Positions 45,006-47,279 of a stretch of 64,000 nt of DNA are shown in pieces (the first letter of the stretch is position 1; each line of letters begins with the position of its first letter). The translations under genes and the position numbers were made by a program. Below the pieces are notes generated by a model, which worked only from the letters and a program-made list of their open reading frames with translations, did no database searches and was not told the DNA's origin. Source of the stretch: Propioniciclava flava. Its GTDB lineage: Bacteria; Actinomycetota; Actinomycetes; Propionibacteriales; Propionibacteriaceae. The DNA lies in contig NZ_PPCV01000004.1 in NCBI RefSeq assembly GCF_004126535.1, positions 186,001 to 250,000 of the forward strand, given 5' to 3'.

Positions 45006-45584
45006 TCAGCGCAGGACGGCCAAGACATCCTCACGCGGGGAGCCTTCGAGATTCCACGTGGCGGTGAGCAGACCCCGCGCAGCGCGCGTGTCCTCGTGCT
45101 CGGCGTCGAGGACGCGCGCCAGACGGACCTGGCCCAGCGCGTCCACCGTGGGGGGCAGCCCGGTGCCTGCCACATGCAAAGTCTGAGGGATCGGTTCGCC
45201 CGTCTCGGCGGACTCCACGTCGGCGGCCGTGTCGCCCTCGCGGATCACGCGCAGCAACTCGGCGACAAAGACCGGATCGGTCGTGGCGTCGTAGCAATAC
45301 CGCGTCCCCAGCGCGCTGTGCTCGGCGGTCCCGATGAGGGTGCCCTCGGCGAGAGGTTCGGCGCGCCAGCTCACCGGCACGTGGTACACCGTGGTGCCCG
45401 AGGCGACCAGCATGCCGTCCAACCCCACCTCGCCGTCCGGGTCGACCAGGCGGTAGTGGGCCACGCGGGTCAGGTTGGCTGCATCGCCGTCAAACCACGG
45501 CTGCTCCGGCAACCAGGTGGCAAGCAGTTCGAGCTTGCTCGGGGACAAAGTGGCGGTCGTGTAGACCTCGGCGGTGCCGCTCAT
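45006..45584 (-). CDS. Maltokinase N-terminal cap-like domain protein
   Basis: A 192-residue protein opening with a TTATLSPSKLELLATWLPEQ stretch, then PWFDGDAANLTRVAHYRLVD and VGLDGMLVASGTTVYHVPVS, which match the N-terminal cap of actinobacterial maltokinases and the stand-alone CG0192-type proteins. The kinase catalytic domain is absent, so it is not a maltokinase itself; the role is unknown. ATG 45584 has GAGGAGAA upstream. Confidence 0.7.
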   Translation of the reverse strand: MSGTAEVYTTATLSPSKLELLATWLPEQPWFDGDAANLTRVAHYRLVDPDGEVGLDGMLVASGTTVYHVPVSWRAEPLAEGTLIGTAEHSALGTRYCYDATTDPVFVAELLRVIREGDTAADVESAETGEPIPQTLHVAGTGLPPTVDALGQVRLARVLDAEHEDTRAARGLLTATWNLEGSPREDVLAVLR

Positions 45585-45707
45585 GGCTGGTTCTCCTCAG
45601 GTTTGTGATGCAGGGACAACGCTAGCCGTCGTGCCTCCACCTGTCCGGGTGATTCCATGGGGATTGTTGCCGGTTGCGGCACAGTCGAACGTGTGCTGGG
45701 GGCACGG

Positions 45708-45737
45708 TTGGCCCTGGATCACCTTCCGGCGTAAGGT
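45708..45737 (+). promoter_or_regulatory. Promoter of the leader peptide/symporter transcript
   Basis: TTGGCC (45708-45713) and TAAGGT (45732-45737) are spaced 18 bp. The predicted transcription start near 45744 gives a roughly 185-nt leader before the symporter gene, containing the Cys-rich short frame and a hairpin. Confidence 0.5.
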
Positions 45738-45770
45738 GGATGCGTCAACAAAGCTCTGAGGGGGTGCTGC

Positions 45771-45839
45771 ATGCCGGATCTGTGGCGTCGACTGACCGTC
45801 GACCTGTGTCTGCGCAGCACCTGTGGTTGTCGCTCCTGA
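45771..45839 (+). CDS. Cys-rich regulatory leader peptide (uORF)
   Basis: A 22-codon open frame with a GAGGGGG ribosome-binding site at 45758-45764. It starts MPDLWRR, then LTVDLCLRSTCGCRS and stop. The RLTVDL core followed by a Cys cluster near the stop (Cys13, Cys18, Cys20) resembles actinobacterial Cys-rich leader peptides placed ahead of sulfur-metabolism genes, where ribosome stalling at Cys codons under cysteine limitation changes downstream expression. It ends 90 bp before the symporter start and is too short for routine gene calling. The identification is by pattern and context. Confidence 0.65.
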   Translation: MPDLWRRLTVDLCLRSTCGCRS

Positions 45840-45878
45840 GCGTTCTCGCCCAGGCCACCCACTGATCCCGTTCGTGCC

Positions 45879-45900
45879 TGCGCGCTGTGCCGCGCGCGCA
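45879..45900 (+). promoter_or_regulatory. Hairpin between leader peptide and symporter
   Basis: TGCGCGC (45879-45885) and GCGCGCA (45894-45900) form a 7-bp GC-rich stem with an 8-nt loop, 40 bp after the leader peptide stop. It is a candidate attenuator or ribosome-site modulator. The symporter ribosome-binding site (GAAAGG) lies downstream of it. No other obvious element is seen in the 345-bp gap from 45585 to 45929. Confidence 0.45.
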
Positions 45901-45929
45901 CGCCCTCATCCTCCTCGAAAGGCATTGCT

Positions 45930-47279
45930 ATGTCCGCCTCCGCCACCGCGAGCACGACCACGAAGGCTCGCCGGCGCGTCCCGTTCTGGGCCCAGGTCCT
46001 GATCGGTCTCGTCGTCGGCGTCGTGCTCGGCTTCCTCGCCCGCACGTTCGCCCTCGGCTGGCTCACCGAAACCCTCAACACCGTCGGAACGATCTTCGTG
46101 CAACTACTGCGCGTCATCGTCGTCCCGCTGGTCCTCACCGCTTTGATCGTGTCGATCACGCAACTGCGCCACGTCGCCAACGCGGCGCGGCTGGCCGTCC
46201 AGACGCTCGTCTGGTTCGCCATCACCGCCTTGATCTCGGTCCTGATCGGCATCGGGATCGGCGTCCTTACCAACCCGGGCTCCTCGGCCACCATCAGCCT
46301 GGAGGGCGCACGAGCCTCCGGCACTCAGGGATCGTGGCTGGACTTCTTGAAGTCGCTGGTCCCGGCAAACTTCCTCGGCCTTGAGGTGTCCTCCCGCGTC
46401 ACCCCGAGCGCCGACACGGTGTCCGTGGCGACCAGCCTGAACTTCAACGTGCTGCAGTTGGTCGTCATCGGGATCGCCCTGGGGGCCGCCGCTCTCGCGG
46501 TGGGTGCGAAGGCCGAGCCCTTCGTCAAGCTCGCTCAGTCGACCCTGGAGATCTTCCAGAAGCTGGTGTGGTGGATCATCCTCCTGGCCCCGATCGGTAC
46601 CGCCGCACTCATCGGGAAGGCCATCGCCACCTACGGCTGGAATCTCCTGGCTCCCCTGGGAGTGTTCGCGCTCGACGTCTACCTGGGCTGCGCCCTCGTG
46701 CTCTTCGTGCTCTACCCGGTGCTGCTGAAGCTGCACGGGCTGTCCGTGCGCCGGTTCTTCGCGGGCGCCTGGGAGGCCATCACCTTCGCGTTCGTCTCTC
46801 GCGCCTCACTGGGGACGCTGCCCGTGACACAGGCCAACACCATCGACAAGCTCGGCGTCCCCAGCTCGTATGCCAGCTTCGCTGTCCCGCTGGGCGCGAC
46901 GACGAAGATGGACGGATGCGCCGCGATCTACCCCGCCCTGGCCGCCATCACCGTGGCTCAACTCTTCGGGGTACCGCTGACGCTGCAGCACTACGTCCTC
47001 ATCGCGTTCGTCGCGGTGGTGGGCTCCGCAGCCACAGCAGGGTTGACGGGCGCCATCGTCATGCTGACGCTGACGCTGTCCACCCTGGGGCTGCCGCTGG
47101 AAGGCGTCGGGTTGCTCCTGGCGATCGACCCCATCCTCGACATGGCACGGACGGCGACCAACGTGGCTGGCCAGGCCCTCGTCCCCACGATTGTGGCCAA
47201 GCGCAACGGCATCCTCGATGAGGATGTCTACAACGGACGCGTCAGCACCGCACCCCAACCCGAGCCGGCCCTCGCCTAG
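45930..47279 (+). CDS. Dicarboxylate/amino acid:cation symporter (possible cystine carrier)
   Basis: A 449-residue SDF/DAACS-family transporter with eight helices and two re-entrant hairpins. The helix-loop motif SRASLGTLPVTQANTIDKLG corresponds to the HP1 Ser-rich tip, and FAVPLGATTKMDGCAAIYPA to the TM7 NMDGT motif, here KMDGC, which argues against a standard glutamate/aspartate site. LLLAIDPILDMARTATNVAG is the TM8 substrate and cation segment. TcyP-type cystine carriers belong to this family, and the Cys-rich leader peptide upstream makes cystine a reasonable but unproven substrate. Confidence 0.85.
   Translation: MSASATASTTTKARRRVPFWAQVLIGLVVGVVLGFLARTFALGWLTETLNTVGTIFVQLLRVIVVPLVLTALIVSITQLRHVANAARLAVQTLVWFAITALISVLIGIGIGVLTNPGSSATISLEGARASGTQGSWLDFLKSLVPANFLGLEVSSRVTPSADTVSVATSLNFNVLQLVVIGIALGAAALAVGAKAEPFVKLAQSTLEIFQKLVWWIILLAPIGTAALIGKAIATYGWNLLAPLGVFALDVYLGCALVLFVLYPVLLKLHGLSVRRFFAGAWEAITFAFVSRASLGTLPVTQANTIDKLGVPSSYASFAVPLGATTKMDGCAAIYPALAAITVAQLFGVPLTLQHYVLIAFVAVVGSAATAGLTGAIVMLTLTLSTLGLPLEGVGLLLAIDPILDMARTATNVAGQALVPTIVAKRNGILDEDVYNGRVSTAPQPEPALA

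Follow-up and report, generated by a model that had tools for sequence, protein, structure and literature searches.

Short cysteine-codon frame upstream of a TcyP-related DAACS symporter gene in Propioniciclava flava and its relatives: a probable cysteine-responsive leader peptide

We report here that a 22-codon frame lying ahead of a DAACS-family symporter gene in Propioniciclava flava recurs upstream of most orthologues of that gene, and that it is probably a cysteine leader peptide through which a shortage of charged tRNA-Cys increases production of a cystine-type symporter. The sequences are best read as a control of cystine-type uptake that responds to cysteine, because the leader is conserved, the distance from its Asp to its Cys is nearly fixed at nine codons, that Cys is encoded by the uncommon codon TGT, related leaders precede sulfur genes, and the symporter groups with TcyP.

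The locus lies within a window of 64,000 nucleotides (positions 186,001 to 250,000 of contig NZ_PPCV01000004.1), to whose numbering all positions refer. Its parts are as follows.

45708..45737, + strand: weak sigma-A-like promoter, TTGGCC-N18-TAAGGT, putative and read from the sequence
45758..45764, + strand: Shine-Dalgarno-like GAGGGGG 5′ of the leader, seen in the sequence; G-rich in all five aligned genus members
45771..45839, + strand: leader ORF of 22 codons, MPDLWRRLTVDLCLRSTCGCRS, with ATG at 45771 and stop at 45837-45839
45828..45830, + strand: candidate sensor codon TGT, encoding the conserved Cys20 nine codons downstream of Asp11
45840..45929, + strand: spacer between leader and symporter, 90 nt, C-rich (C 43%, G 26%), lacking a terminator
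45880..45897, + strand: GC-rich stem-loop of the initial annotation, present in the fold, with z −0.18 for the region
45917..45922, + strand: Shine-Dalgarno-like GAAAGG of the symporter, invariant in five aligned genus members
45930..47279, + strand: DAACS/SDF symporter, 449 aa, with a Pfam SDF match; placed with TcyP (cystine) within the family by tree and motifs
46905..46919, + strand: TM7 motif KMDGC of the symporter, invariant in the clade

The coordinates, the GAGGGGG site and the Pfam SDF match thus confirm the original proposal of a 22-codon frame with a ribosome-binding-like site ahead of a DAACS symporter. All three Cys codons of the P. flava leader are TGT. A consensus promoter scan of the leader region found no promoter, the sigma-A-like one included; by eye, TA[AT]GGT occurs at a comparable place in three loci (L003-L005).

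Conservation of the frame and its Cys codons in relatives had been set beforehand as one of two tests by which the proposal could fall; checked by sequence, it left the proposal standing. Symporter orthologues of at least 59% identity were present in 35 of the 96 genomes searched, P. flava's own counted, and a related short frame lies 5′ of 32 of them, 28 found by pattern and four divergent ones by eye (L006, L010, L025 and L030); at L029, L031 and L065 neither approach found a leader. The same kind of peptide appears in most of the upstream-ORF sets of the first 30 of the 35 orthologues. A profile of 18 leader peptides (alignment A1) matched 23 genomes at E ≤ 6e-6, every match lying directly 5′ of a symporter orthologue, and five further genomes (G090, G082, G046, G078 and G092) gave weaker matches in this position; the profile's rows were taken from these very loci, so that the search is partly circular and shows a common place rather than an independent discovery. 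Across five genus members including P. flava, 52 of 69 columns are invariant in the leader as against 18 of 90 in the spacer. Identical leaders were counted once. Four named loci (L071, L073, L075 and L080) seem to duplicate the records L013, L018, L025 and L026. Two rows were left out: L088 from set B, a chance pattern match at a Rhizobiales locus, and L026 from alignment A2, which is truncated.

Farther afield, among the named loci (the best 80 of at least 590), the leader profile exceeded 12 bits at 19 of the 57 outside Rhizobiales; the 38 without such a score are counted against the leader reading. None of the 23 Rhizobiales loci in this set exceeded 12 bits, which is counted in favor of a cysteine leader. 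Weaker look-alikes, under the 12-bit line, occur in Blastococcus. Several Rhizobiales loci (L084, L086, L098, L115 and others) have a KMDGC symporter with no leader detected, which suggests that the symporter gene was transferred there without its control.

The key feature was originally taken to be a terminal cluster of Cys codons. This was not borne out: 13 of 27 leaders have a single Cys in the matched stretch, and we rejected the cluster as a conserved feature. What is conserved is a single Cys that follows the Asp at nine codons. Among 67 unique leaders the spacing is nine codons in 66 and eleven in one (for leaders with more than one Cys, the Cys closest to 9.5 in the range 8-11 from the Asp was taken), and this Cys is TGT in all 67. 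With the phylum sample added, the codon at D+9 is TGT in 81 and TGC in 2 of 83 leaders, a count that excludes the 11 of 30 phylum-sample loci (L190-L219) falling outside the pattern. By eye, nine of these misfits have TGT at D+9, whereas L205 lacks a Cys and L215 carries Gly where the Asp would stand. The background is very different: ORFs of at least 300 aa, chosen by length only at the 57 non-Rhizobiales named loci, contain 169 TGT and 863 TGC (16% TGT), and ORFs of the window, likewise chosen by length only, contain 20 and 95. Since the leaders were found through amino-acid patterns or profiles, the Cys codon was not selected for; the lineages counted, however, are not independent of one another. 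The other Cys codons of the same matched stretches are 31 TGT and 48 TGC; the raised share of TGT there too (31 of 79) is counted against the cysteine-leader reading. In six phylum-sample loci (L199, L200, L208-L210 and L217) each peptide uses both codons, TGC for its Cys at D+7 and TGT for that at D+9. In 65 of the 67 leaders C or T is the first base of the codon after the conserved Cys, so the constraint may be one on an RNA motif.

These same figures bear on a different sensing mechanism, in which the R..VDL..R..S core would act in the ribosome tunnel and a nascent-peptide arrest, of a type comparable to that of TnaC, would sense free cysteine or a related metabolite rather than tRNA-Cys charging. 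The core is conserved even though its codons vary (the Asp is GAC in 48 leaders and GAT in 19), and simple codon sensing needs neither the core nor the near-constant Asp-Cys spacing. The almost exclusive use of TGT, however, suggests that decoding of the codon matters and not just the amino acid, and we regard such an arrest as possible but on the unlikely side.

The symporter itself belongs to the DAACS/SDF family (Pfam SDF, E 2.2e-96, 323.7 bits against a gathering score of 27.9). Its KMDGC motif is invariant in all 35 orthologues and present in all 80 named loci (the best 80 of at least 590), for which the pattern TKMDGCA was one of the two used to find them. That the transporter belongs with TcyP, as first suggested, was upheld by a FastTree phylogeny of 51 sequences, in which the KMDGC clade, E. 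coli TcyP and two paralogues (L068 and L069) separate from GltP, DctA, L067 and L070 with support 1.0, on a tree with only three named references (TcyP, GltP and DctA). The TM7 motif had been described as KMDGC in place of NMDGT; the change of N to K holds, but the C aligns as an inserted residue (G-C-A) that is common to the clade and TcyP and missing in GltP and DctA. With E. coli TcyP (YdjN) the symporter further shares GCA..YPA in TM7 and [DE]P..DM.RTA.NV.G in TM8, while differing in overall identity (30%) and in having KMDGC where TcyP has QNGC. The substrate is therefore likely to be of the cystine type, as judged from sequence. Pairwise BLAST scores GltP (155 bits) slightly above TcyP (147 bits) and so does not separate the two, which is counted against the overall reading of a cysteine leader for a cystine-type symporter, as is the lack of recurring neighbors: no cluster, all being unannotated, recurs in more than 13 of the 80 named loci (the best 80 of at least 590). 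R407 and D404 of the symporter align with substrate residues of GltPh, and at the place of GltPh D405 the symporter has Q, where TcyP has S. The retention of R407 and D404, together with the similar GltP and TcyP scores, would suit a leader that senses cysteine ahead of a carrier whose substrate is not cystine but an acidic amino acid or a sulfonated analogue; the grouping in the tree and the extra TM7 residue found also in TcyP argue the other way, and this substrate is doubtful.

Leaders of related sequence occur elsewhere. The NCBIfam family NF042934 ("putative leader peptide", cis_reg_atten) has a cut-off of 27 bits, which five of nine orthologous leaders scanned reached. The P. flava leader stays below it and matched none of the NCBIfam families, and an NF042934 search of the P. 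flava genome gave no matches; the leader does contain the R..VDL..S..C core of the family (alignment A1, with the Cys at D+9). NF042934 matched in 68 of the 96 genomes at E ≤ 0.1, in 34 above the cut-off, some of the matches being symporter leaders themselves. Thirty such loci gave 27 downstream ORFs, several in doubtful frame, of which eight were symporters. Nine of the other 19 ORFs were scanned and comprise an NMT1-type binding protein, a luciferase-like monooxygenase, two ABC permeases, a cysteine dioxygenase, two FMN reductases, TauE and a pyruvate/oxoacid oxidoreductase. A phylum-wide sample (16 of 246 genomes; 10 of 12 ORFs scanned, each the best-scoring ORF starting within about 800 nt and not always the first) added three rhodaneses, two sulfite/nitrite reductases, two luciferase-like proteins, two PALP enzymes, which on reading resemble CysM, and one cysteine dioxygenase. 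Altogether, 19 genes following other NF042934 leaders were scanned. Ten of them belong to sulfur-type families (rhodanese 3, cysteine dioxygenase 2, NIR_SIR 2, PALP 2, TauE 1), eight would fit sulfur scavenging (luciferase-like 3, FMN reductase 2, ABC permease 2, NMT1 1), and one, the oxoacid oxidoreductase, is neither and is counted against. The suggestion that the leader pattern is tied to sulfur genes is thus supported by the sulfur and cysteine genes that related leaders precede. The unexpected target is the pyruvate/2-oxoacid:ferredoxin oxidoreductase behind an NF042934-type leader (L184) in G003, a member of the P. flava genus. In another genome a second family leader (L185, G031:C1:795424-795474) lies about 5.8 kb from the symporter orthologue on the opposite strand.

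The distance from leader to symporter is 35 nt in L012, 60 nt in L018 and about 159 nt in L007 (P. flava genus; start codon corrected), with spacer lengths running to the first aligned residue and the rows of L003, L007, L028, L063 and L064 including coding sequence. Close spacing in the first two would suit a leader without any sensing role that only helps ribosomes to translate the symporter or re-initiate on it, but the wide range of spacings, the conserved peptide core and Cys codon and the recurrence of the family before different sulfur genes make this very improbable.

How a cysteine leader would act on the symporter message is constrained by what the spacer contains. The initial annotation placed a GC-rich hairpin there, and its stem at 45880-45897 does form in the fold; a part for it in attenuation was not upheld, and we rejected it as terminator or switch, since no intrinsic terminator was found in the P. 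flava leader and spacer region and its folding is not beyond chance. An Rfam scan of 45560-46000 matched no family. Folding z-scores at five loci (0.09, −0.18 in P. flava, 1.35, −1.32 and −1.92) reveal no common switch, which is counted against the cysteine-leader reading. Neither a terminator nor a conserved alternative fold was thus seen in these analyses, and Rho-dependent or translational forms of control would not need one; because both are lacking, Rho-dependent termination or translational control is likelier than a terminator switch. The excess of C over G per nt, counted roughly and starting from the first aligned residue, is 0.144 in 22 leader loci, 0.100 in 35 other non-Rhizobiales loci and 0.068 in 23 Rhizobiales loci; the closeness of the first two values is counted against the cysteine-leader reading and leaves Rho loading a possibility. 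Under cysteine-leader control, a shortage of cysteine would slow ribosomes at codon 20, a UGU that lies two codons ahead of the stop, and the paused ribosome would let the symporter message be completed or translated, with Rho-dependent termination or translational control as the presumed route.

In many relatives a second signal may act on the same gene. The element GGAAT-N17-19-GTT, which is the consensus of the thiol-stress sigma factor, occurs within 480 nt upstream of 24 of the 35 orthologues, 22 of which have the leader; 200 shuffles gave a mean of 0.245 and a maximum of 2, and none of 211 control stretches had it. In the GGAA[TC] form it lies close by 21 of the 28 pattern leaders, and in 19 of these 21 an in-frame start follows GTT by 9-13 nt, as expected for a leaderless message; the leader message is thus probably leaderless in many relatives. 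The element is absent within 480 nt upstream in P. flava and also in four of the five congeners with the gene (L002-L005 and L007 together), L008 having it. Beyond the order it is rarer: among the named loci (the best 80 of at least 590), GGAAT was seen at 10 of the 57 outside Rhizobiales, up to four of these ten repeating the first set, and at one of the 23 within Rhizobiales. Matches to the SigH_actino profile were found in all 96 genomes (92 above cut-off) and to RsrA in 95 (73 above cut-off), P. flava being above cut-off for both. At other NF042934 leaders the GGAA[TC] form occurs in 6 of 50, with a GTG 9 nt on in five near-identical cases. The two of these five that were scanned, the phylum-sample loci L196 and L219, combine a family leader, GGAAT-N-GTT and a GTG 9 nt behind it with a PALP enzyme that reads like the cysteine synthase CysM.

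Tentatively, these features could be combined into a peptide-assisted one-codon sensor, in which the R..VDL core nine residues behind would prime the ribosome and make a single wobble-decoded UGU hypersensitive to tRNA-Cys charging; in many relatives, where a thiol-stress sigma factor would drive it, the cystine importer would then be made only in cells both oxidised and short of cysteine. For these relatives the arrangement suggests one importer gated by thiol stress and cysteine supply. More broadly, a transporter joins a leader-peptide system whose known targets are mostly genes for making or handling cysteine. Mycobacterial Cys-rich leader ORFs were reportedly also described by Canestrari in 2020. 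The UGU nine codons after Asp is a sharp, testable signature, unmentioned in the available portions of the literature compared here. A search of titles and abstract openings, with most subscription papers outside it, returned no earlier report that mentions UGU use, a DAACS gene behind such a leader, or the name of the family.

Compared with known systems, NF042934 leaders have a common core R..VDL..R..S..C and often precede sulfur genes; the P. flava leader itself matches no model, and its target is a DAACS symporter. The thiol-stress element resembles SigH/SigR promoters, the C. glutamicum SigH consensus being GGAAt-N18-19-GTT in the accessible part of PMC10012870, and is shared by the 24 orthologues but missing before the P. 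flava leader. The Cys leaders of Seliverstov 2005 (PMC1262725, in the available text) likewise have Cys codons near the stop and no conserved terminator, with Rho as one suggestion from a prediction called weak; their targets are cys operons and cbs, and the word "symporter" is absent from that text. The Rhodobacterales cysS leader uORFC-8-2, as given in the accessible part of PMC8632094, is likewise a uORF for Cys-codon attenuation, but UGC dominates there and the model includes a terminator, whereas here UGU dominates and no terminator was found. The mycobacterial Cys-rich leader ORFs (Shell 2015, PMC4633059, in the available portion) are likewise short, carry Cys codons close to their stop, lie ahead of a cysteine-related gene and, as is probable for many of the relatives studied here, are leaderless; the present leaders differ in having a single key Cys where those have a run, a Shine-Dalgarno-led frame in P. 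flava, a symporter as target and a putative cysteine response.
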